Assembly: GCA_030765245.1 (NCBI GenBank) | Contig: JAVCCX010000315.1 | Span: 1-10,546, forward strand | Length of the DNA: 10,546 nucleotides | DNA from: Candidatus Zophobacter franzmannii | GTDB lineage: Bacteria > Cloacimonadota > Cloacimonadia > Cloacimonadales > JAFGVF01 | Direction of reading: 5' to 3' | Shown here: positions 2-10,546 of the stretch, in pieces | How positions within the stretch are numbered: position 1 is the first letter of the stretch | How the letters are laid out: the number at the start of each line of letters is the position of its first letter | The notes under the pieces: generated by a model | Database searches by the model: none | What the model was told of the DNA's origin: nothing | Seen by the model: the letters and a program-made list of their open reading frames with translations, nothing else | Program-made: the position numbers and the translations under genes

Positions 2-358
2 AATATTGTTCTGGATAAAAATGGTGGACCTAACCATGTAGGTAACTTCTGCGGAGCTCCTATAATGATAGATTCAGACAAGCAGTTTGTTTACTACACT
101 CCGATTTTTCATATCCTGTCTCAATTCAGCAGAACTATAAGACCTGGTGATATCGCTGTTCAAACTGAGAAAACAATCCCTGAACTTGATAACGATACGA
201 TTCATACATGTGCGACTATTAATAATGATGGATTGTTGAGTGTGCAAATTCTTAATACATCGAATGGTGCAATTGATTATAATCTCCAAATTGGAGAACA
301 ATACTGTCCAGTAACTATCAAGGCAAATGCGTTGCAAACAGTGAGGATACAGCTGTGA
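2..358 (+). CDS. GH30 family glycoside hydrolase, C-terminal fragment
   Basis: The 118 residues visible are the end of a larger enzyme whose start lies before the window. The frame is open from base 2. The segment opens with NIVLDKNGGPNHVGNFC, which resembles the final strand and loop of the GH30 barrel. It continues with a small beta domain containing YYTPIFHILSQFSRTIRPGD, close to the 'Y..P.Y..IGHFSKFIRPG' stretch typical of GH30 beta-glucosidases and beta-1,6-glucanases. Both catalytic glutamates would lie upstream, so activity cannot be judged. In this neighbourhood a beta-1,6-glucanase that removes laminarin side branches is the most sensible role, but GH30 also includes glucosylceramidases and other beta-glucosidases. 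The TGA stop overlaps the GTG start of the next gene (GTGA), so the two are probably cotranscribed and translationally coupled. The family call is from recalled motifs. Confidence 0.8.
   Translation, partial: NIVLDKNGGPNHVGNFCGAPIMIDSDKQFVYYTPIFHILSQFSRTIRPGDIAVQTEKTIPELDNDTIHTCATINNDGLLSVQILNTSNGAIDYNLQIGEQYCPVTIKANALQTVRIQL
341..347 (+). promoter_or_regulatory. Ribosome binding site supporting a GTG start
   Basis: GTGAGGA contains the GAGG core and lies 7-8 bases before the GTG at 355. It supports GTG as the start of the GH17 lipoprotein. The first in-frame ATG lies far downstream, past the lipoprotein signal and the start of the catalytic domain. Confidence 0.6.
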
Positions 359-1479
359 AAAGAGAATTTATAAAAGGGATACTAATTCTCATAGCCATAA
401 TTATCCTTAGTTCGTGCAATATCAACAATAGTTTTAAGTCAATATCAGAAATCAGAATTTCACTTGAGTCAGATGTACTGATTGATAGCGAAAAGCCTTT
501 TAAAATACGAGAGTTTAAGCCCTATTTAAATGATCAGTGGATTGGCAAAGCAATATCATACGGTTGTTACCGTAAAGGTCAGGCACCATGGGGAACGGGT
601 CCATCAGATGTGGAGATAAAGCAAGATCTTAACATTATCTCAGCATATTGGAATCTTATTCGAATTTATAATGCTGATAATGATACCGAAAGGATTCTGG
701 AGTCGATTAAGGAACACAGTTTTCCTGTTAAAGTTATGCTCGGAATCTGGTTGGAAAAGGAATCTGAAAACAGCATAGGGAAAGAGGGAAATGTCAATAA
801 TGTGCTTCGGGGTATTGAATTAGCCAGAAAATATCCTGAGATTGTGATAGCAGTCAATGCGGGTAATGAGACCCAAGTTTACTGGTCCGGACATCGAATG
901 GAGAGTGCAAACCTTCTTAAATATATTCGAGTTGTCCGTAATAATATAGCTCAACCTGTAACAACTGCAGATGATTACAACTTCTGGAATAAATCTGAAA
1001 GCAAACAGATCGCATCTGAAGTTGATTTCATAGTTACACATATCTACCCACTCTGGAACAGCAAACTACTTAATGAATCTATCAGCTGGATGAGTAAAGA
1101 GTTAGCTGTTATCAATAGCTTGCATGAAGACAAGTCCATTATTTTAGGTGAGATAGGATGGGCAACAAACTATAATCCTGAGAAGAAAGGGCAGGGACAG
1201 CAAGGTACACTTATAAAGGGTGATGTTAGTCTGCAAACTCAAGGAGAGTTTCTAATCATGCTTGATAAGTGGATTGAAGCAAATAGAACAACAACCTTCC
1301 TGTTTGAAGCTTTTGATGAGCTTTGGAAAGGTGGGGCTGAAAATACTGGTTCAAATGAAATAGAGAAGAATTGGGGTGCCTTTTATGAGAATAGGGAACC
1401 CAAACAATCGTTTATTAACTATCAGAAATATGTGAATGAACATAATCAAAAAATTCGTCATGGAGGAAACAATGAATAG
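355..1479 (+). CDS. GH17 endo-beta-1,3-glucanase-like lipoprotein
   Basis: This predicted outer-membrane or periplasmic lipoprotein of 374 residues most likely cleaves beta-1,3-glucan internally. Residues 1-20 form a basic then hydrophobic signal ending in a lipobox, LSSC, with Cys21 as the lipidation site. After a linker of about 40 residues comes a barrel domain with GH17 hallmarks. These are WNLIRIYNAD (99-108), VNAGNE (167-172) with Glu172 as likely acid/base, TTADDYNFW (203-211), DFIVTHIYPLW (224-234), GEIGWAT (265-271) with Glu266 as likely nucleophile, and FLFEAFDELWKG (315-326). The order and spacing fit bacterial GH17 enzymes, so the domain looks intact. The start is GTG within the previous gene's stop (GTGA), and the end overlaps the next gene by 8 bases, so it sits inside an operon. 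Some bacterial GH17 members are transglycosylases, so the exact reaction is inferred. Confidence 0.88.
   Translation: MKREFIKGILILIAIIILSSCNINNSFKSISEIRISLESDVLIDSEKPFKIREFKPYLNDQWIGKAISYGCYRKGQAPWGTGPSDVEIKQDLNIISAYWNLIRIYNADNDTERILESIKEHSFPVKVMLGIWLEKESENSIGKEGNVNNVLRGIELARKYPEIVIAVNAGNETQVYWSGHRMESANLLKYIRVVRNNIAQPVTTADDYNFWNKSESKQIASEVDFIVTHIYPLWNSKLLNESISWMSKELAVINSLHEDKSIILGEIGWATNYNPEKKGQGQQGTLIKGDVSLQTQGEFLIMLDKWIEANRTTTFLFEAFDELWKGGAENTGSNEIEKNWGAFYENREPKQSFINYQKYVNEHNQKIRHGGNNE
1462..1467 (+). promoter_or_regulatory. Ribosome binding site fixing the start at 1472
   Basis: GGAGGA lies just before the ATG at 1472 and inside the coding end of the GH17 gene. It favours this ATG over the upstream in-frame ATG at 1436. 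The chosen start also puts the hydrophobic signal peptide at the very N terminus. Confidence 0.75.
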
Positions 1480-3775
1480 TAAAGGTAGCGTATTTTTTCT
1501 TTTGGTTTTTTTGTCACTCTTAATAGGGTTACATGCGCAAACAACAACAATAGATTTTGAATCAGGGGATTCAGGAACAAATTGGGCATGGACTGTTACA
1601 GAAAACGGTTCAAATCCAGCTTTAACTTTCCCGGTAAATCCGGATAATACAGGTGACAATACATCTGCAACGGTTGCTCAATTTACTGCTGAGGATGCAG
1701 GAAATCCATGGGCTCTCTGCTATACAGATGATATTGATCTATTTGAGTTTGATGCAACTAATAGTATGGTTAGTATTATGGTTTATAAACCCGCTGTTAG
1801 CCCTGTAGCCATTAAATTTGAAGGTTTAAGTCTTCCGGTGGAGATTCAGATATCAAACACATTAATTGACCAATGGGAACAGATAGACTTTGATTTTTCA
1901 AGTTCAATTGGCAACACTTACAATAGATTAGTTATTATCCCTGACTTTGCAGACAGATCTCAGGATAACATCATCTATTTTGATAACATAGTAGTACCCG
2001 AAGAGAATATAATTCCAGCTATTAATGATGCTAGTTTAAGTGATCTATTAGTTGATGGTTCTACTATTGATGGATTTGATACCGATATATATATCTATAA
2101 TGTTGAACTTGCAGACGGCACAACGACAGTGCCGACACTAACTGCAACGACAACCATTCCTAATGCTTCTTACCAAGTAAATGATGCTGCTGTATTACCA
2201 GGGACATCAGAAGTAGTAGTAACTGCTGAAGATGGTATTACAATACTTACATATAGTATTGCATTCACAATTTCTCAACCGGTTGTATTAGATACTCCGG
2301 CTCCAACCCCGGATGAGTTACAGGAAGATGTAATTTCAATCTATAGTGATTCATATACTGATATTGCAGGAACCAACTTCAATCCATTCTGGGGACAATC
2401 AACTCAGGTAAGTTTTGAAGATGTGAATGGTAACAATATGATGAAGTATGATACTTTCAATTATCAGGGAACCCAGTTGAACGGTAATCAGGATCTATCG
2501 CTAATGGAATATGTTCATATAGATGTTTGGACAGAAGATGCAACAGTTGTGTTATTCTCTCCAATTAGTATCACAACAGGAGAGCATTTAGTATCTCTTA
2601 CACCAATCAATATTGGTTCATGGAATAGTTACGATATCCCTTTAACGGATTTTGTTGGCATGACATTTATTGATATCCATCAGCTTAAGTTTGATGGTCA
2701 AGCTGGAGTAACACCATCAACAATCTATCTTGACAATATCTATTTCTGGAAAGCACCTGTAGTTGCTGGCTCAGATGCTACCCTTGCAGATCTTCTCGTC
2801 GGTGGCACTACTATCGCCGGTTTCTCATCAATAATTCTAAGTTATGATTATGAACTTGCAAATGGCACACCAAGGATACCAACAATCACTGCTACTACAA
2901 ACGATCCTAATGCAAGCTATGTAGTAAACAATCCGGCATCAGTTCCGGGTGCAAGTGCAATTGTTGTTACAGCAGATGATAATATAACAGTTTTAACTTA
3001 TACAATAAACTTCACATATGCTGCTGCGACTCCTGTCACTCCTGCTCCTACACCAACAGCAGATAGTACTAATGTAATTTCGTTATACAGTGATGCTTAT
3101 CAAGATGTTACAGTAGATACTTGGTCCGCAGTTTGGGATCAAGCAGATGTTGTAGATGAACTAATCAATACTGATAATGTTAAACTCTATACAAACTTTG
3201 TTTATGCGGGTATTGAGTTTACCTCCCAAACTATTGATGCAACCTCAATGACTCATTTCCATATGGATGTATGGACTCCGGACGATACTTCCGCACCTTC
3301 AGAGTTCAAGGTAAAACTTGTTGATTTCGGAACTGACGGATCCTGGGGTGGTGGTGATGATGTTGAGCATGAACTGATATTCGGTGAGGCTACACTGAAT
3401 ACTGAATCATGGGTTAGTCTTGATATCCCTTTAACAGATTTTATCAATCTTACAACTTCTGGTCATTTAGCTCAATTGATCATCTCTGGAACTCCTAATA
3501 CAGTATATGTAGATAATGTATACTTCTACACTGACAATCCTGTTGCTCTTGGGATTCCTCAGAATGTAGCTGTGCTATTTGCTGGAACTGATATAACAAT
3601 ATCCTGGGATGAAGTCTCAGGTGCAACATCTTATGTTGTTTATGAATCAGATACCCCTAATGGAGCTTATAGCACTGTTATAGGTGGAAGTTATATTGGA
3701 ACGAGTTGGACAGGCATTGCTCAATCAAATAGAAGATTCTATATTGTAAAAGCAGCTAATGTTCCAGTTAGATAG
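1472..3775 (+). CDS. Secreted multi-module protein, putative beta-glucan binding
   Basis: This exported protein of 767 residues has no recognisable catalytic domain. Residues 1-22 are a signal peptide (cleavage near HAQ). The modules in order are: module A, 25-178 (beta-sandwich-like, with WAWTV and ending IIYFDNI); a cadherin-like beta-sandwich repeat, 185-268 (LSDLLVDGSTIDGF to TAEDGITILTYSIAFTI); module B copy 1, 273-428 (ending IYLDNIYFW); a second cadherin-like repeat, 432-516; module B copy 2, 522-687 (with GGDDVEHEL at 627-635); and a C-terminal fibronectin type III-like domain, about 693-762. Pro/Thr/Ala-rich linkers (TPAPTP) precede the B modules. Similar modules accompany GH16 laminarinases in marine Bacteroidetes, as far as I recall, so glucan binding is a reasonable inference but unproven. 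No C-terminal sorting domain is present, unlike the paralogue that follows. It overlaps the GH17 gene by 8 bases. The boundaries are estimates from internal repetition. Confidence 0.82.
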   Translation: MNSKGSVFFLLVFLSLLIGLHAQTTTIDFESGDSGTNWAWTVTENGSNPALTFPVNPDNTGDNTSATVAQFTAEDAGNPWALCYTDDIDLFEFDATNSMVSIMVYKPAVSPVAIKFEGLSLPVEIQISNTLIDQWEQIDFDFSSSIGNTYNRLVIIPDFADRSQDNIIYFDNIVVPEENIIPAINDASLSDLLVDGSTIDGFDTDIYIYNVELADGTTTVPTLTATTTIPNASYQVNDAAVLPGTSEVVVTAEDGITILTYSIAFTISQPVVLDTPAPTPDELQEDVISIYSDSYTDIAGTNFNPFWGQSTQVSFEDVNGNNMMKYDTFNYQGTQLNGNQDLSLMEYVHIDVWTEDATVVLFSPISITTGEHLVSLTPINIGSWNSYDIPLTDFVGMTFIDIHQLKFDGQAGVTPSTIYLDNIYFWKAPVVAGSDATLADLLVGGTTIAGFSSIILSYDYELANGTPRIPTITATTNDPNASYVVNNPASVPGASAIVVTADDNITVLTYTINFTYAAATPVTPAPTPTADSTNVISLYSDAYQDVTVDTWSAVWDQADVVDELINTDNVKLYTNFVYAGIEFTSQTIDATSMTHFHMDVWTPDDTSAPSEFKVKLVDFGTDGSWGGGDDVEHELIFGEATLNTESWVSLDIPLTDFINLTTSGHLAQLIISGTPNTVYVDNVYFYTDNPVALGIPQNVAVLFAGTDITISWDEVSGATSYVVYESDTPNGAYSTVIGGSYIGTSWTGIAQSNRRFYIVKAANVPVR
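1544..2005 (+). repeat. Module A, copy 1 (shared with 3857-4318)
   Basis: This segment encodes residues 25-178 of the first modular protein and is matched along its whole length by the N-terminal module of the next gene. Shared blocks include WAWTV, TDDID.FEF, MVYKP, KFEG, IGNTY.RL and IPDFA.R. The similarity is a protein-level duplication. Confidence 0.85.
2288..2755 (+). repeat. Module B, copy 1 (divergent)
   Basis: This segment encodes residues 273-428. It keeps the frame of module B: a proline-rich lead-in, VISIYSDSYTD, a WG/WD tryptophan, HIDVWT, SYDIPLTDF and IYLDNIYF. It lacks the GGDDVEHEL acidic loop found in the other two copies and is shorter there. Confidence 0.8.
3035..3532 (+). 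repeat. Module B, copy 2
   Basis: This segment encodes residues 522-687. It closely matches copy 3 in the next gene, with VISLYSDAY, KLYTNFVYAGIEFTS, TIDAT, DMWTPD/DVWTPD, GGDDVEHEL, SLDIPLTDF, LAQLIISG and VYVDNVYFY. Copies 2 and 3 resemble each other more than either resembles copy 1. Confidence 0.85.
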
Positions 3776-3796
3776 GAACTTTAGCTTGGAGAAAAT

Positions 3797-5152
3797 ATGA
3801 AAAAGAATATAATAACAATCTTTATAATAATGATGAGTGCAGTTATATTTGCACAGTATGTCAATGTTGATTTTGAACCAGGAAGTCTTGGTGCAGAATG
3901 GGCTTGGACAGTAGGTGATAATGGAGATAATCCACCGGTTGAATTTGTTGCTAATCCCAACACAACAGGTATAAACTCTTCAACCAATAGTGCTATGTTT
4001 ACTGCCAGACAAGGCGGACAAGCTTGGGCTCTATGCTTCACCGATGATATTGACCCATTTGAGTTTAATGCAAACAACTCAATTATAACTATAATGGTTT
4101 ACAAACCGGTTGTAAGTAATATTGCTGTTAAGTTTGAAGGTACAAGCGCACCATTTGAACTCCAGTCTGCTAACACATTGATAAATCAATGGGAGGAAAT
4201 TACATTTGATTTCTCCGGTTCAATTGGAAACACATATAGTCGCTTAATAGTGATTCCTGATTTTGCAATCAGAACAGAGGACCATATTCTCTACCTTGAT
4301 AACATCCAGTTACCTGAAAGTAATGTGGACCCTGTTCCTGAACCAGCTACTGCAGCTCCTTTCCCAATGCATCCAAGTGATAGTGTTATCTCTTTATTCA
4401 GTAATGCTTATACTGATAATGCTGTAAATACATGGTCAGCAGATTGGGATAGTGCGGACGTAAGTGATGTACAAATTCAGGGTGATGATGTGAAGCTTTA
4501 TACAAACCTATCATTTGCAGGTATTGAGTTTACATCCAGCACAATTGATGCAACAGCGTTAGATTACTTTCATATCGATATGTGGACTCCTGACACAATA
4601 GTGAATCCGGAAGAATTGAGAATCAAACTCATTGATTTTGGTGCTGATGATGCTTGGAGTGGTGGAGACGATGTGGAACATGAGCTTTCATTCTTTGATG
4701 ACATAATCATCGCGGATTCATGGATAAGCCTGGATATACCTCTTAGTGATTTCACAGTACTAACAACAAGAGCAAACCTAGCACAGTTAGTAATCTCCGG
4801 AGACCCAAATACTCTCTATGTTGATAACCTCTACTTCTATGATATGCCATTGGATGTAGATGAAGAGACTGGTGGAGTGTCAAATGCAGTTTATCGTTTA
4901 GGTGGAAACTATCCTAATCCGTTTAATCCTACAACAAACATTAACTACTCATTGAGTAAACCGGGTAATGTAACTCTGAAGGTTTACGATGTAAAAGGTA
5001 GATTAGTTGAAACTCTTGTTGATGGATACAAATCAGCAAGTTCACATAATGTTGGATGGAACGCAGTTAATGTCGCTTCCGGGATATACTTCTACTCACT
5101 TTCAGTGAACAACAGATCAATTGAAACAAGACAAATGGTTCTACTTAAATAG
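3797..5152 (+). CDS. Secreted modular protein with T9SS-type C-terminal sorting domain
   Basis: This exported protein of 451 residues is a shorter relative of the preceding gene's product. Residues 1-19 are a signal peptide (cleavage near IFA-Q). Module A spans about 21-174 and module B about 190-348, including GGDDVEHEL at 289-297 and the closing strand TLYVDNLYFY. Residues 367-451 form a C-terminal beta domain that opens with NYPNPFNPTTNINYSL. It continues with VTLKVYDVKGRLVETLVDG and ends in GIYFYSLSVNNR followed by a short basic tail. This is the FlgD-like/type IX secretion sorting domain seen across the FCB group, and it suggests cell-surface attachment or release. There is no catalytic domain. 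A role as a surface glucan-binding protein is inferred from the shared modules and the operon. The start is ATG with GGAG at 3788-3791, 21 bases after the previous stop, and a terminator follows directly. Relative to its neighbour it lacks both cadherin-like repeats, one B module and the fibronectin-like domain. Confidence 0.87.
   Translation: MKKNIITIFIIMMSAVIFAQYVNVDFEPGSLGAEWAWTVGDNGDNPPVEFVANPNTTGINSSTNSAMFTARQGGQAWALCFTDDIDPFEFNANNSIITIMVYKPVVSNIAVKFEGTSAPFELQSANTLINQWEEITFDFSGSIGNTYSRLIVIPDFAIRTEDHILYLDNIQLPESNVDPVPEPATAAPFPMHPSDSVISLFSNAYTDNAVNTWSADWDSADVSDVQIQGDDVKLYTNLSFAGIEFTSSTIDATALDYFHIDMWTPDTIVNPEELRIKLIDFGADDAWSGGDDVEHELSFFDDIIIADSWISLDIPLSDFTVLTTRANLAQLVISGDPNTLYVDNLYFYDMPLDVDEETGGVSNAVYRLGGNYPNPFNPTTNINYSLSKPGNVTLKVYDVKGRLVETLVDGYKSASSHNVGWNAVNVASGIYFYSLSVNNRSIETRQMVLLK
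3857..4318 (+). repeat. Module A, copy 2
   Basis: This segment encodes residues 21-174 of the second modular protein and is the partner of 1544-2005. It ends with ILYLDNIQLP, which corresponds to IIYFDNIVVP in copy 1. Confidence 0.85.
4364..4840 (+). repeat. Module B, copy 3
   Basis: This segment encodes residues 190-348 of the second modular protein, immediately before the linker to the sorting domain. It is most similar to copy 2 (3035-3532), including the GGDDVEHEL loop and the LAQLVISGDPNTLYVDN ending. Confidence 0.85.
4895..5149 (+). other. T9SS/FlgD-like C-terminal sorting domain
   Basis: This segment encodes the last 85 residues of the second modular protein. The NYPNPFNPTT opening, the KVYDVKGRLV strand and the GIYFYSL strand near the end are the usual marks of this domain. 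It is the strongest clue to the type of organism. Confidence 0.85.
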
Positions 5153-5159
5153 ACTTAAC

Positions 5160-5196
5160 AATCAGCCAATACAACCGTGTTGGCTGATTTCCTTTT
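5160..5196 (+). terminator. Rho-independent terminator after the secreted-protein genes
   Basis: AATCAGCCAA (5160-5169) and TTGGCTGATT (5180-5189) form a perfect 10-base-pair stem around a 10-base loop. The stem is followed by a pyrimidine tract, TTTCCTTTT. It begins 8 bases after the stop codon of the upstream gene, as expected for a transcript end. The T tract is interrupted by CC, so termination may be partial and allow read-through to the phosphorylase gene. Confidence 0.8.
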
Positions 5197-5216: not shown

Positions 5217-5222
5217 ATAGTG

Positions 5223-8200
5223 ATGAATCCTACCAAAAATGATAAATTTAGACTTAATGATAATGGAGAATTCGTGATTTCGGATTACAACTCATCGAAG
5301 TTATTCTCTAGCTTTTTTCCTGGAGTGGCAGGGAAGGAGGGTATCCCGATGTGGTTGTTCTATGTTAACCGTGGACAATGTGTATGCAGTATGGGGATTG
5401 AAGGTAAAGATAAACCTATTATGGAGTTCCTACCTGCAAATTGGGCATATAACCTGGTTTCATCTCAAGGTTTCAGAACATTCCTCAAGTTTAAAAGCAA
5501 AGATACTTATGCTTTCTATGAACCATTCCAGAGAGAACTGCAGAATGAAGAGATGCTGATTGAGCAGAAGATGATTATCAAGCCTGCCGGATTGACTCTT
5601 ATTGAAACTAATCGGTCATTACAACTCAGATTCATCGTTGAGTATAATAATGTCCCACAAGATACATATGCCGGTCTGATTCGTGAATTGAAGATTGAAA
5701 ACTTGAGCGATAGTTCAATCAATTTTGACCTTATGGATGGTTTGCCATTGATAATTCCCTACGGATTAGATAATAATGGATTGAAGTTTATGAGACGACT
5801 GTTTGAAGCTTTTGTAGAAGTTACTAATTCTGAGACTAAAGTACCATTCTTCAAAGGTAAGGTCGAACCTTCTGATAGACCTGATGTAGTCAGGATTAAA
5901 AAGGGTAATTTCTATCTTGGGTTTACACACGAACAGGATAATTTTGAGTTAGTGACCCCAGTTGTAGATCCGGTTAAGATTTTCGGTAACAGGGGTGATT
6001 ACAAGGTCCCTGAGATGTTCCTTAAAGGATCGACTAAAGAGATGTTGAAGGATCAAGTACTTGAAAATAGGCTTCCGTCAGCTATGGGCATTATGAATGT
6101 CGCCATAAAGGCAGGGGATTCCTTTAAATATACATCTGTTATAGGACATGCGGAATCAGTTGATGAATTGAACAATCTTGTGCCAATGATCACTTCTCCT
6201 AAGTATATAGAACAGAAGAAACAGGAAAATGCTGAATTGGTTGATAGACTTACCCAAAACAACTTTATCTGTAGTGAAGAAGCAAGCTTGGATTACTATG
6301 CCAGACAAAACTTCCTTGATAACGCTCTTCGTGGGGGTTTCCCATATACTATTCAAGGAACAAATAGCTCAACAACAATCCACTTGTATTCACGAAAACA
6401 TGGAGACCTGGAAAGAGATTATAATGATTATAGGCTTACACCAACTCAATATTCACAGGGTAACGGTAACTTTAGAGATGTGAACCAAAATCGCAGGAGT
6501 GATCTTTTCTTTAATCCGGATGTTAAGGATAGCAATATTGAGCATTTCTACAATCTTATCCAATTGGATGGTTTTAATCCGTTGGTAATTAAAGAGATTA
6601 GATTTGCAGTTAAAGATTTTGATTATTTGGAATCAGTTCTTAGCAAACATATAGATAATGCCAAGATTGGATTCGTGGAAGAGTATCTCAGAAACCCATT
6701 TACACCAGGTGAGTTACTATCTTACCTAAAAGAAAATTGGATAGAAATATCAACAAGTACAGAAGGTTTCATTGGTGACTTAACCGGGATTTGCATTAAA
6801 AAGTTTGATACAGCTTATGGTGAAGGATACTGGTCTGACCATTGGACATATAACCTTGATCTACTTGAAAACTATCTCGCTTTCTATCCGGAAGAGAGAT
6901 ACAATCTTCTCTTCAACAAGAAAGAATACACGTACTATGATAATCCCCATCTTGTAGTCCCACGAGAAGACAAGTATGTAATCTGGGATGAAAATCTAAT
7001 GCAGCTTAATAGTGTTGTATTTGATGAAGAGAAGGAAGAACTCATCAATCAGCGCTTGATTGATCGTAACAAAGTTCATACAGATTATGGTAAGGGTGAA
7101 GTTTACACAACAACTCTATTCAATAAGATGCTCTGCCTGATTACTAATAAGCTAGCTTCTTTAGATGGCTCCGGGGTTGGAATTGAGATGGAGTCAAATA
7201 AGCCTAATTGGTATGATGCATTAAATGGACTACCCGGTTTGTTTGGTTCCAGTTTAAGTGAAACTCTCGAAGTGAAGCGTCATATCCTTTTCATGTTACA
7301 TTCACTTAGTGAAGGGAAAGGGATAACAAGCTCATTTGCTTTACCTGAAGAACTTCACAATTTTGCTCTGTCGCTACTGGAATTGCTTAATTCTAATCTT
7401 ACACCTTTTACTTACTGGGATAGTGCCACAACCATGAAGGAGCAGTATCGAACGACAACCAGATTAGGTATCAGCGGAAATGAAATGCAGATATCATTTG
7501 AGCAAGTAATATCTTTGTTGAAGGCAGGTTTAAAGAGAGTTGAAGATGGTATATCCAGAGCTTGGAACAAAGAGCAGAATGTAATCTCAACATACTTCAT
7601 TAATAAAGTCATTAAGCATGAATTGATCTATACAATAGCTTCCAATGGTGAACAGGTTGTGAAAAGAAATGTAAAAGGTTTACCATGTTTCAAGGCTCTT
7701 AAATTTGAACTGATTCACCTTCCTCTATTCCTTGAGGGTCCTGTACATTTTCTTCGAACCTGTGAGGATAGAACAATATCACAAAAGCTTGTACAAAACA
7801 TTCGGTTGAGTGGATTGTTTGATTCAAAACTGAAGATGTACAAGGTGAATGAATCTCTTAAGGATCAACCATTGGAGATTGGTAGAGCACGTACTTTCTC
7901 ACCAGGATGGTTTGAAAATGAATCTATCTGGTTACATATGGAGTATAAGTATATGCTGGAAGTTCTCAGGAATGAGCTTCATGAGGAATTCTTCGATGAT
8001 TTCAAGAATGTATTTATTCCATTCCTCAAACCGGAGATCTATGGAAGAAGTATACTTGAAAACTCCTCTTTCATAGTAAGTAGTGGTAACCCTGATTCAT
8101 CAATCCACGGAAATGGTTTTGTTGCCCGTTTAAGCGGAGCAACAGCAGAATTTATCAGCATACTGATGCATATGGCAACAGGAAGAACTCCTTTCTCAAT

Positions 8201-8543
8201 TGATGACAAAGGTGCTCTTCAGCTGACACTTAAGCCGGTTTTGCCAAAGTGGATATTTACTAAAACTACTAAAGATAAGTCGTTGTATATAGGAGAAAAG
8301 TGGCAAAATGTTACATTCCCAGCAAACTCCTTCAGCTTCACTTATCTTGGAGAAGTACTTGTCATTTACCATAATCCCGGAAATGGGAATACATTCGGTA
8401 AAGAGAGTGTTAAACCTATTACTTATACTCTTGAGTTCAATGATGGTTCAAGAAAAATCATTAATAACTCTTATCTATCAGGAGAATTGGCAAAAGCTGT
8501 CCGGGATAGATTGATTGTTAGATTGGATGTATTACTCGGGTAG
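5223..8543 (+). CDS. Beta-1,3-glucan phosphorylase-like enzyme (GH149 / GH94-related)
   Basis: This 1106-residue protein without a signal peptide is predicted to be cytoplasmic. It resembles the large proteins often labelled cellobiose phosphorylase, which are longer than classical GH94 enzymes (about 800 residues) and match GH149 in size. GH149 enzymes use phosphate to shorten beta-1,3-oligoglucans, releasing glucose-1-phosphate. An N-terminal beta-sandwich region contains FSSFFPGVAG (28-37), PMWLFYVNRGQ (42-52) and IMEFLPANWAY (66-76). The central helical barrel contains GEGYWSDHWTYNLDL, with Asp539 in the SDHW motif, and a later block NWYDALNGLPGLFGSSLSET starting at Asn662. Either Asp539 or Asp665 could be the general acid; I cannot decide from sequence alone. 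The C-terminal part has beta-rich stretches expected for this clan. The adjacent GH3 gene and upstream GH17/GH30 genes fit beta-1,3-glucan use. GH161 or an unusual GH94 are alternatives. The start is ATG 5223, chosen over GTG 5220 on spacing. Confidence 0.8.
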   Translation: MNPTKNDKFRLNDNGEFVISDYNSSKLFSSFFPGVAGKEGIPMWLFYVNRGQCVCSMGIEGKDKPIMEFLPANWAYNLVSSQGFRTFLKFKSKDTYAFYEPFQRELQNEEMLIEQKMIIKPAGLTLIETNRSLQLRFIVEYNNVPQDTYAGLIRELKIENLSDSSINFDLMDGLPLIIPYGLDNNGLKFMRRLFEAFVEVTNSETKVPFFKGKVEPSDRPDVVRIKKGNFYLGFTHEQDNFELVTPVVDPVKIFGNRGDYKVPEMFLKGSTKEMLKDQVLENRLPSAMGIMNVAIKAGDSFKYTSVIGHAESVDELNNLVPMITSPKYIEQKKQENAELVDRLTQNNFICSEEASLDYYARQNFLDNALRGGFPYTIQGTNSSTTIHLYSRKHGDLERDYNDYRLTPTQYSQGNGNFRDVNQNRRSDLFFNPDVKDSNIEHFYNLIQLDGFNPLVIKEIRFAVKDFDYLESVLSKHIDNAKIGFVEEYLRNPFTPGELLSYLKENWIEISTSTEGFIGDLTGICIKKFDTAYGEGYWSDHWTYNLDLLENYLAFYPEERYNLLFNKKEYTYYDNPHLVVPREDKYVIWDENLMQLNSVVFDEEKEELINQRLIDRNKVHTDYGKGEVYTTTLFNKMLCLITNKLASLDGSGVGIEMESNKPNWYDALNGLPGLFGSSLSETLEVKRHILFMLHSLSEGKGITSSFALPEELHNFALSLLELLNSNLTPFTYWDSATTMKEQYRTTTRLGISGNEMQISFEQVISLLKAGLKRVEDGISRAWNKEQNVISTYFINKVIKHELIYTIASNGEQVVKRNVKGLPCFKALKFELIHLPLFLEGPVHFLRTCEDRTISQKLVQNIRLSGLFDSKLKMYKVNESLKDQPLEIGRARTFSPGWFENESIWLHMEYKYMLEVLRNELHEEFFDDFKNVFIPFLKPEIYGRSILENSSFIVSSGNPDSSIHGNGFVARLSGATAEFISILMHMATGRTPFSIDDKGALQLTLKPVLPKWIFTKTTKDKSLYIGEKWQNVTFPANSFSFTYLGEVLVIYHNPGNGNTFGKESVKPITYTLEFNDGSRKIINNSYLSGELAKAVRDRLIVRLDVLLG

Positions 8544-8602: not shown

Positions 8603-10441
8603 ATGAGTAAAATTGAGAAGCGAATAGATGAAATCATGAGTCGTATGAATCTGGACCAGAAAGTTGGACAGATTGTGCAACCAGAGAGAATGTTTGTAAC
8701 ACCTAAAGAAGTGAAACGGTATCATATCGGTTCTGTGCTTAGTGGCGGTGGTTCAACTCCTGGTGAGAATAGACTGGAAGATTGGGTTGAGATGAATGAT
8801 GCCTACTGGGCAGCATCGATGGATGAGGATGAAAATCACATAGCGATTCCACTTGTTTATGGTGTTGATGCTATACATGGCAACACTAATGTGAAGGGAT
8901 CTGTTGTATTTCCTCATAATATTGGATTGGGAGCAACGAATGATCCTGATCTTCTTGAGAAAATTGCAAAAGCAACTGCGAAAGAAATCGTTGCTACAGG
9001 TGTGGACTGGACATTTGCTCCTACCATTGCTGTTGCCCAAAACGATCACTGGGGCAGAACTTATGAAAGCTATTCTGAAACACCTGACCTTGTTTCAAAA
9101 TATGCACCTAGGTTTGTGAAAGGACTGCAGGGTAAGTTTGGTGATGAAAATGTCATTGCCTGTGTTAAACATTGGATAGGAGATGGAGCTAGTCTTCATG
9201 GAATAGATCAAGGAGATGCTTGTGTTACTGAAAAGGAACTCAGAAAGATCCATATGCCACCTTACAAAGCTGCAATAGATGCAGGAGTCCAGACTGTGAT
9301 GATATCACTGAGCAGTTGGAACCAGGAAAAGCTACATGGAAACAAGTATCTGATTACTGACGTCTTAAAAGATGAGCTAGGTTTTGAAGGATTTGTTATC
9401 TCTGATTGGGATGGAATTGGTTATCTTGATGAAAACTTCAGTGAAGCGGTAGCTATTTCAGTAAACGCTGGTATTGATATGTTCATGATAACGGCACAAT
9501 GGCGTGAGTTCATTGAACTGGTAAAAGAACATATTGCTACAGGTAGAATAGCAATGGAAAGACTTGATGATGCAGTTAGAAGAATTCTGAGAGTAAAACT
9601 TGTGTCCGGTTTGTTTGAGCGTCCACGCCCTTCAGAACGCAAATTCTCAAATGATTATTCAGTTTTCGGATCTGATTCACATCGAGAAGTTGCCCGAGAA
9701 GCGGTAAGAAAATCTCTTGTACTTTTAAAGAATGAAAATAATATCCTTCCTTTATTTAAAGATGCCAGAATTCTTGTTGCAGGTAAGAATGCAGATAACA
9801 GGGGACATCAATGTGGGGGATTTACAATTGCATGGCAGGGAGTTAGAGATAATGAATCAATCATTGGCGGTACTTCAATCTGGGAAGGTATTCATGATGT
9901 CGCTCCTAATGCTGAATTAAGTATTGATGGAGGGACTGCTGACCCTAATAGACATGATGTTGCTATTGTTGTTATAGGTGAAACTCCTTATGCAGAGATG
10001 GAAGGAGATCTTCGTGTCCCAGGTTTGACTAAGGGTATCAAGATTAGTCGTGGCTCTACCTCTGAAGATCATACTGCTGATGACCCTTTCCCAATAATGA
10101 AAGCAGGACCGTACGGTACTCACTTATATCATCATGAACTTCATCCTGAAGATATCGCAACAATTCGAAGCATTACTTCGAAAGGCATCACCGTTGTGAC
10201 AGTGATGGTTTGTGGAAGACCCTTAGTAATAAACGATGAATTAGATGCATCAAAGGCCTTTGCAGTTGCTTGGTTACCTGGTTCTGAAGGTGACGGCATT
10301 GCTGATGTTATCTTTGGTGACTATAACTTCAATGGAAAATTATCTTTCTCTTGGCCCCGTTATGATAATGATAACTGGAACCTTGGAGATGAAAACTATT
10401 ACCCACTATTCCCGTATGGGTTTGGATTGAGATACAAATAA
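8603..10441 (+). CDS. GH3 beta-glucosidase / exo-beta-1,3-glucanase, cytoplasmic
   Basis: This complete two-domain GH3 enzyme of 612 residues releases glucose from the non-reducing end of beta-glucans or oligosaccharides. The barrel domain (about 1-345) shows GVDAIHG (87-93) with substrate-binding Asp89, WGR (150-152), KHWIGDG (189-195), a GIDQGDA loop (200-206), and GFVISDWDG (263-271) with Asp268 as nucleophile. The second domain (about 360-612) contains ARILVAG, then GETPYAEMEGD (459-469). Glu465 there aligns, from memory, with the acid/base of barley exoglucanase ExoI. It ends with FPYGFGLRY, the usual GH3 finish. The layout matches the plant ExoI and bacterial exo-1,3/1,4-beta-glucanase group. 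Unlike many of those bacterial relatives it has no signal peptide, so it probably works inside the cell beside the phosphorylase. AAGGA at 8591-8595 is its ribosome binding site. The 59-base gap upstream holds no convincing hairpin, so it is probably cotranscribed with the phosphorylase gene. Confidence 0.93.
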   Translation: MSKIEKRIDEIMSRMNLDQKVGQIVQPERMFVTPKEVKRYHIGSVLSGGGSTPGENRLEDWVEMNDAYWAASMDEDENHIAIPLVYGVDAIHGNTNVKGSVVFPHNIGLGATNDPDLLEKIAKATAKEIVATGVDWTFAPTIAVAQNDHWGRTYESYSETPDLVSKYAPRFVKGLQGKFGDENVIACVKHWIGDGASLHGIDQGDACVTEKELRKIHMPPYKAAIDAGVQTVMISLSSWNQEKLHGNKYLITDVLKDELGFEGFVISDWDGIGYLDENFSEAVAISVNAGIDMFMITAQWREFIELVKEHIATGRIAMERLDDAVRRILRVKLVSGLFERPRPSERKFSNDYSVFGSDSHREVAREAVRKSLVLLKNENNILPLFKDARILVAGKNADNRGHQCGGFTIAWQGVRDNESIIGGTSIWEGIHDVAPNAELSIDGGTADPNRHDVAIVVIGETPYAEMEGDLRVPGLTKGIKISRGSTSEDHTADDPFPIMKAGPYGTHLYHHELHPEDIATIRSITSKGITVVTVMVCGRPLVINDELDASKAFAVAWLPGSEGDGIADVIFGDYNFNGKLSFSWPRYDNDNWNLGDENYYPLFPYGFGLRYK

Positions 10442-10463: not shown

Positions 10464-10546
10464 TTATAATCAATTTTCCTATACGGGTGCAAAAGCCTGC
10501 TGAATGACAGCAGGCTTTTGCACCCGTATAGGAAAATTGATTATAA
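10464..10546. repeat. 83-base perfect fold-back at the window edge
   Basis: Two 39-base arms (10464-10502 and 10508-10546) are exact reverse complements around the 5-base loop AATGA. The second arm stops exactly at the last base of the window, so its true length is unknown. The central part is a normal terminator; the outer 27 base pairs extend well beyond what a terminator needs. It may be a real long hairpin or a fold-back artefact at a contig end. Confidence 0.95.
10491..10519 (+). terminator. Rho-independent terminator after the GH3 gene
   Basis: AAAAGCCTGCTG and CAGCAGGCTTTT pair as a perfect 12-base-pair stem with loop AATGA. This is a compact A-stem-T terminator 49 bases after the GH3 stop codon. 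Because it is symmetrical it could serve either strand. If the downstream arm of the larger fold-back is artefactual, the part of this stem after the loop (10508-10519) would need confirming from raw reads. Confidence 0.75.

Follow-up and report, generated by a model that had tools for sequence, protein, structure and literature searches.

Two proteins of an uncultured Cloacimonadota bacterium that are encoded side by side, X and Y, probably bind glycans by means of CBMs alone and belong to a complete locus for the use of beta-1,3(1,6)-glucan (laminarin-type), in a genome where SusC and SusD were not found. The window, that is, the whole stretch of 10,546 nucleotides analysed, is the entire contig C31 of a 2.3-Mb metagenome-assembled genome (MAG) with a completeness of 83% (labelled G000; L numbers denote compared loci, G numbers genomes and P numbers relative proteins). 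The modules of X and Y, their folds, a sorting tail, part of a type IX secretion system (T9SS) and a recurring locus were computed, and SusC/D was not found. These results support, as a whole and on its testable parts, the interpretation given in the earlier note, which had proposed the tandem pair as a non-catalytic glucan-binding system. Binding of laminarin-type glucan by X and Y is predicted from their sequences and from modelled structure.

The genes of the window follow the order GH30 (3' end), GH17, X, Y, GH161 and GH3 (Table 1). The pair had been described as lying between a GH17 gene and a beta-1,3-glucan phosphorylase gene, and GH17 is indeed found upstream and GH161 downstream. Against PF00332 the GH17 gene scores 16.6 bits, below the cut-off of 28.2. 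A GH149 identity of the phosphorylase was rejected, the model scoring 114.7 bits where 1150 are required, and GH161 was preferred on the match to 9qqk. The hairpin that follows Y is the sole terminator-like site found; since shuffled sequences average 5.3 such sites, more than observed, it is no evidence by itself, and a role as an attenuator dividing the binding proteins from the cytosolic enzymes is possible at most. At positions 10464-10546, exactly at the contig end, there is a perfect 39-nt inverted repeat with a 5-nt loop, which looks like an assembly end artefact.

Table 1. Features of the window, with residue ranges of the X and Y modules as delimited by profiles.
Feature	Position	Strand	Residues	Evidence
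GH30 gene 3' end, 118 aa, cut by window start, endo-beta-1,6-glucanase-like	2..358	+		PF17189 31.2 bits, PF02055 29.3 bits, both above cut-off
GH17-like glucanase, probable lipoprotein (LSSC by eye)	355..1479	+		PDB 6fcg GH17 E 5.7e-17
Protein X, 767 aa, non-catalytic, A-Cad-B1-Cad-B'-Fn3, without T9SS tail	1472..3775	+		ORF list, module profiles
X module A (laminarin-CBM-like)	1547..2002	+	26-177	
X cadherin-like linker 1 (Cad)	2036..2302	+	189-277	own profile 109 bits
X module B1 (CBM30/CBM11-like)	2309..2761	+	280-430	
X cadherin-like linker 2 (Cad)	2783..3043	+	438-524	profile 110 bits
X module B'	3032..3529	+	521-686	profile 264 bits
X C-terminal Fn3-like domain	3551..3754	+	694-761	profile 98 bits; 3mpc_A Fn3-like E 0.037, family profile 0.0014
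Protein Y, 451 aa, non-catalytic, A-B'-T9SS tail	3797..5152	+		ORF list, module profiles
Y module A (laminarin-CBM-like)	3863..4318	+	23-174	profile 245 bits; 8QX6_A phmmer E 6.3e-10, profile 5.1e-11
Y module B'	4343..4840	+	183-348	
Y type IX secretion type A sorting tail	4895..5149	+	367-451	PF18962 38.2 bits (cut-off 27), TIGR04183 43.5 bits (cut-off 23)
Hairpin and T-rich tail, possible attenuator between Y and GH161 phosphorylase	5160..5189	+		terminator scan
GH161 beta-1,3-glucan/oligosaccharide phosphorylase, without signal peptide (by eye)	5220..8543	+		PDB 9qqk 'gh161 phosphorylase' E 2.5e-211
GH3 beta-glucosidase, without signal peptide (by eye)	8603..10441	+		PF00933 277.6 bits, PF01915 123.7 bits

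Both open reading frames of the pair were recovered, adjacent and in frame. X starts at an ATG with GGAGG shortly upstream and overlaps the end of the GH17 gene by 8 nt. The signal peptides that the earlier note had recognized can be read by eye on both proteins (MNSKGSVFFLLVFLSLLIGLHAQ and MKKNIITIFIIMMSAVIFAQ), and the modules it described as common to X and Y are far above chance in sequence comparison, with 55% identity between Y and X for module A (E 3e-65) and 60-61% for module B' (E 6e-63). Module boundaries were taken from profiles built on relatives, and these profiles tile X and Y, leaving no room for a catalytic domain. The absence of such a domain, already noted, is thus confirmed: Pfam finds none, and no untiled stretch in either protein is long enough. 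Above cut-off, Pfam reports no family for X and the sorting tail alone for Y. A catalytic module in X or Y was ruled out by the profile tiling together with the CBM, Ig-like and sorting folds. Newly recognized are the sorting tail of Y and, in X, a second, diverged B module, the two cadherin-like linkers and the Fn3-like end. On linker 1 of X, PF12733 reaches a weak score of 11.8 bits against a cut-off of 24.2, and it matches 11 of the 21 members of alignment A2 (best E 4.2e-7).

The arrangement recurs within the order. We compared 11 loci, namely the window, L003, L004, L060 (with L002, the same contig, counted once) and L062-L068; L061 and L069, which represent a second, paralogous site, were left out of these counts. 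The best segment of L002, the closest named locus, shares 84% identity with Y. In every locus whose contig extends far enough, the gene immediately before the A/B protein(s) is GH17 (9/9 loci) and the gene immediately after is GH161 (10/10); GH3 comes next after GH161 in nine of ten loci, the exception being L067. Pfam scans of the flanks detected GH16 in all five loci scanned (L062-L065, L068), a GntR-type regulator in four of four (L062, L063, L065, L068) and MFS_2 in four of four (L004, L062, L063, L065).

The association with GH161 extends to the level of genomes. All 58 genomes (the source genome and 57 others) match Y, most through the tail alone, and at least 9 of the 58, the source genome included, have A/B modules among the matches listed, where tail matches crowd. 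GH161 matches occur in 11 of the 58 and are essentially full length in 9. All nine listed A/B genomes fall within the 11 GH161 genomes (Fisher 5e-9, uncorrected for kinship). The GH161 gene of G016, a genome with no listed A/B modules, is immediately preceded by a T9SS-tail fragment at which the contig breaks off. G025, also devoid of listed A/B matches, carries a GH161 remnant with stops (L092, G025:C15, about 5526-5964), an apparent loss.

On contig C107 of the source genome, a GH16 fragment is followed by an MFS_2 carrier of 645 aa and then by the N-terminal part of a GH30. Measured against the GH30 of L004 (563 aa), this part breaks off near residue 435, and the window holds the last 118 residues. 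Because the two GH30 pieces complement each other, C107 and the window contig most likely abut, with some ten residues missing; no overlapping bases were found between them, and we therefore infer the abutment. The MFS_2 carrier (L082, G000:C107, 1324-3261, minus strand) contains, at roughly residues 110-280, an inserted segment of some 155-165 residues, common to the source genome, L004, L062 and L065 and absent from L005, L012, L063 and L064, which is possibly an extra transporter part outside the membrane. The last 40 residues of P0262, a 1006-aa GH16, are the same as those of the GH16 fragment (L082 3274-5019); the last 500 residues failed to match as one exact string, so P0262 is a near copy of this GH16 and not the same protein. 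At the second site of the genome (L069, G000:C16, 2466-5710), a GH16-like protein with a T9SS tail (PF00722 26.5 bits, cut-off 22) is followed by a Y paralogue of the form A-B'-tail, about 50% identical to Y, and L061 of the sister genome has a similar pair.

The earlier note had linked the modules to GH16 laminarinases and held that here they stand alone. The link stands, since B' sits on GH16 in related loci, near the C-terminus in L063 (247 bits) and at the C-terminus in L064 (281 bits); the second half holds in part, the modules being found standing alone and, for B', on enzymes as well. Both of these GH16 proteins have a lipobox by eye. Among the best 120 rows, B or B' reaches at least 100 bits in 7 of 58 GH16 proteins, including P0238 (L064) and P0244 (L063), and at least 20 bits in 45 of 58, a set that leans to B' because the query carried B'. 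The GH16 fragment of the source genome has a weak B-like end (21.8 bits). By script, the lipobox pattern is present in 4 of 7 GH17 and 0 of 7 GH30 relatives; by eye, four GH30 also look lipidated.

The AlphaFold2 model of X has a mean pLDDT of 81.7. Structure prediction and comparison with CBMs, proposed earlier as a check, returned CBM folds for A, B1 and B', and a catalytic fold was not found. The structure matches with the best E values (reelin, insecticidal proteins) are alignments over the entire chain with an rmsd above 25; taken as bead-on-string matches, they were disregarded. Module A has a beta-sandwich fold like that of 8QX6, its nearest solved relative, titled a laminarin-binding CBM (X584); the identity of 21% counts against our main reading and would not fix ligand specificity. 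B1 and B' fold like CBM30/CBM11 at a sequence identity of about 15%. The module alignments show conserved tryptophans at W16, W18, W58 and W113 in module A and at W32, W36, W82 and W128 in B'. Neither X nor Y has a CBM_11 or CBM30 Pfam match at E<=1, and a profile sequence search of the PDB with B' gave nothing credible. In alignment A2, CBM30 (E 7.6e-5) and CBM_11 (E 0.059) each find a match in one of the 21 members, and CBM_11 exceeds the cut-off in 9 of 10 distant proteins scanned, nine having been picked because their record lists CBM_11. The B1 region of X and B' of a Y paralogue match by BLAST at E 9e-13; BLAST was used in place of the profile comparison of B' with B1 (100%), which was discounted on account of overlapping seed sets.

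The CBM11 matched by the B modules was solved with a beta-1,3-1,4 tetrasaccharide, consistent with a pair that binds another beta-glucan than algal laminarin (fungal or yeast beta-1,3/1,6-glucan, callose or mixed-linkage glucan) in a general beta-glucan locus. The GH30 of L065, which resembles an endo-1,6-glucanase at 192 bits (below the cut-off of 700), points in the same direction, as do digesters and lakes, given as Cloacimonadota habitats in passages of an earlier report (PMC8542988). We hold this alternative to be plausible but somewhat less than probable: module A has its nearest solved relative in a structure titled laminarin-binding, and GH17, GH16, GH30 and GH161 all fit branched beta-1,3-glucan.

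That no SusC or SusD is visible, as previously observed, is borne out by profile searches of the source genome (MAG 83% complete), and the flank genes scanned likewise include none. The search with PF07980 (SusD), which covered the source genome alone, gave no match; PF14322 (SusD) matches one of 58 genomes (G046) and not the source genome, and TIGR04056 (SusC) exceeds its cut-off in one of 58 (G046), the source genome having no match. At E 0.001, TIGR04056 is matched in 56 of 58 genomes, the listed weak matches being far below the cut-off and most covering just the N-terminal part. A SusC/D pair could be missing from the 83%-complete MAG by incompleteness; against this worry, 56 of the 57 other genomes have no SusC/D above cut-off. 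One TonB-type barrel is encoded on another contig of the source genome and counts against our main reading.

Two features of T9SS type A cargo were found, the tail on Y and part of SprA in the genome (TIGR04189 318.6 bits in one frame, cut-off 200, model positions 10-790 of 2319). Of the 71 matches to Y in this genome, the majority involve the tail and nothing else, so the genome encodes many tailed proteins. X lacks a tail in Pfam, TIGRFAM and own-profile scans and has no lipobox by eye. Its Fn3 end was considered as a new sorting signal, which was not supported: the genome has 8 matches including X, mostly weak. Together with the Sec signal read by eye, the absent tail and an Fn3 end unlike a general sorting signal would fit a Y standing alone at the surface and an X that serves as a periplasmic store or holder of oligosaccharides, and L065 has a single X-type protein without tail. 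This arrangement appears unlikely to us, if far from negligible, since related loci would put the same modules outside: in L063 and L064, X-type and Y-type arrays are fused with a tail in one protein (A-B1-Cad-B1-Cad-B'-A-B'-tail), and in L066 X has its own T9SS tail. These fusions and the tailed X suggest that X and Y act in one place, while the tail-less X is left unexplained thereby.

In L060, of the same genus, the Y form is A-B'-B'-tail and the 5'-cut X has three B1, and the L060 X gene contains repeated 30-mers, raising the idea that repeats in X and Y were collapsed during assembly and that the numbers in the window are an artefact. We judge this quite improbable. Repeated 40-mers are absent from the L060 X gene and repeated 16-mers from the X-Y stretch of the window; the short Y form (A-B'-tail) recurs in L003, L004, L061, L062 and L069 and in proteins P0038, P0053 and P0093; and P0004, identical to Y over 98% of Y, comes from a 32,065-base contig.

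Outside the order, A/B-type matches are widespread, with 5761 and 2044 among the 8000 candidates scored in each search, those of Y being partly tail-only. Loci L005-L022 from these contexts were left out of the counts; L008, L009 and L013 were partly scanned, and L005, L010 and L016 rest on BLAST. In the Ignavibacteria-type loci L005, L010, L012 and L016, GH17 lies beside A/B proteins, and L012 additionally contains GH16, MFS_2 and a genuine GH149 (1619 bits). Genes of the length of a GH149 take the GH161 place in L012 (11919-15383), L005 (13706-17179) and L010 (13174-16638), of which that of L012 was scanned and is GH149. Since related A/B proteins neighbour GH161 in one group but GH149 in another, they seem to be tied to the substrate and not to one enzyme. 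In L008, the three neighbours scanned of an A-B'-tail protein (patatin, histidine kinase, restriction enzyme) are all without visible link to glucan. In L013, Pfam identifies one of the five neighbours scanned as a dehydrogenase and gives no match for the other four, and BLAST shows a distant GH3 (31%) close by. The L008 and L013 contexts imply that A/B modules need not serve glucan everywhere. The Bacteroidetes contig L009 (2554-21005) encodes several large proteins with A/B modules alongside a cohesin protein and a GH81 that bears a T9SS tail, which together form a candidate beta-1,3-glucan set. A structural or adhesive role of X and Y at the surface (biofilm, attachment), outside glucan feeding, as the L008 context, the cadherin-like and Fn3 spacers common in adhesins and the lack of an enzyme domain in the precomputed Pfam annotation of most listed relatives with the same modules might suggest, is very unlikely given the fixed GH17-GH161 position in related loci and the presence of B' on GH16.

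Returning to a laminarin-type glucan locus as the preferred reading, we infer the ligand, location and partnership of X and Y as follows. Y would leave the cell by way of Sec and then T9SS and be attached outside, where its A and B' modules would hold glucan. X would present a longer series of such binding modules, set on cadherin-like spacers, and work with Y, placed either bound to Y, in the matrix or in the periplasm. The held glucan would be cut outside by GH16, GH30 and GH17, several of them apparent lipoproteins, and the MFS_2 carrier may move oligosaccharides or glucose across the inner membrane. In the cytosol, GH161 would phosphorolyse the oligosaccharides and GH3 hydrolyse the remainder. 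Phosphorolysis saves ATP, which suits a fermenter.

More broadly, the loci may represent a SusC/D-free type of glucan locus in Cloacimonadota and some Ignavibacteria, in which proteins made of CBMs alone, displayed by the T9SS and either split, fused or single, replace SusD/SGBP capture and feed MFS_2 and a phosphorylase (GH161 or GH149), with arrays of modules that grow and shrink from one close relative to the next; we see even chances for this generalization. The locus with X and Y offers a testable candidate for the capture of laminarin-type glucans, a large carbon pool, by type IX bacteria without SusC/D in anoxic settings, and proteins mostly called hypothetical in databases become candidate glucan binders. 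In the open-licence literature we found no paper on laminarin use by Cloacimonadota, and nothing to the point on a CBM family number or on SGBP, laminarin and T9SS together. As far as these searches show, such CBM proteins are new in a Cloacimonadota locus without SusC/D and with T9SS export and B modules.

Multimodular proteins with laminarin-interacting CBMs have reportedly been described from marine Bacteroidota. Module A resembles the laminarin-binding CBM X584 (PDB 8QX6) in sequence and fold; here, however, it occurs in Cloacimonadota, on proteins that also bear CBM30/11-like B modules and, in Y, a T9SS tail, and no SusC/D was found. B1 and B' share the fold of CBM11/CBM30, whereas the curated Pfam cut-off is not reached. 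X and Y occupy the place where Bacteroidota loci carry SusD-type capture proteins (SusD, SGBP-A/-B), yet no SusC partner or SusD was found, no lipobox is seen by eye and Y would travel by T9SS. Within the same phylum, passages on Ca. Stygibacter describe a scaffoldin-like extracellular system of cohesin/dockerin with CBM2/CBM3 (PMC8542988), which shares with X and Y the use of non-catalytic CBM proteins; laminarin, SusD and TonB are absent from the main text of that paper. Gene content is similar in the GH161 gene clusters described in parts of another study (PMC6484121), the text of which does not contain the term 'carbohydrate-binding': there as here GH161 stands beside GH3, GH30 and GH16 genes, but the ABC transporters of those clusters give way in our loci to MFS_2 together with X and Y.
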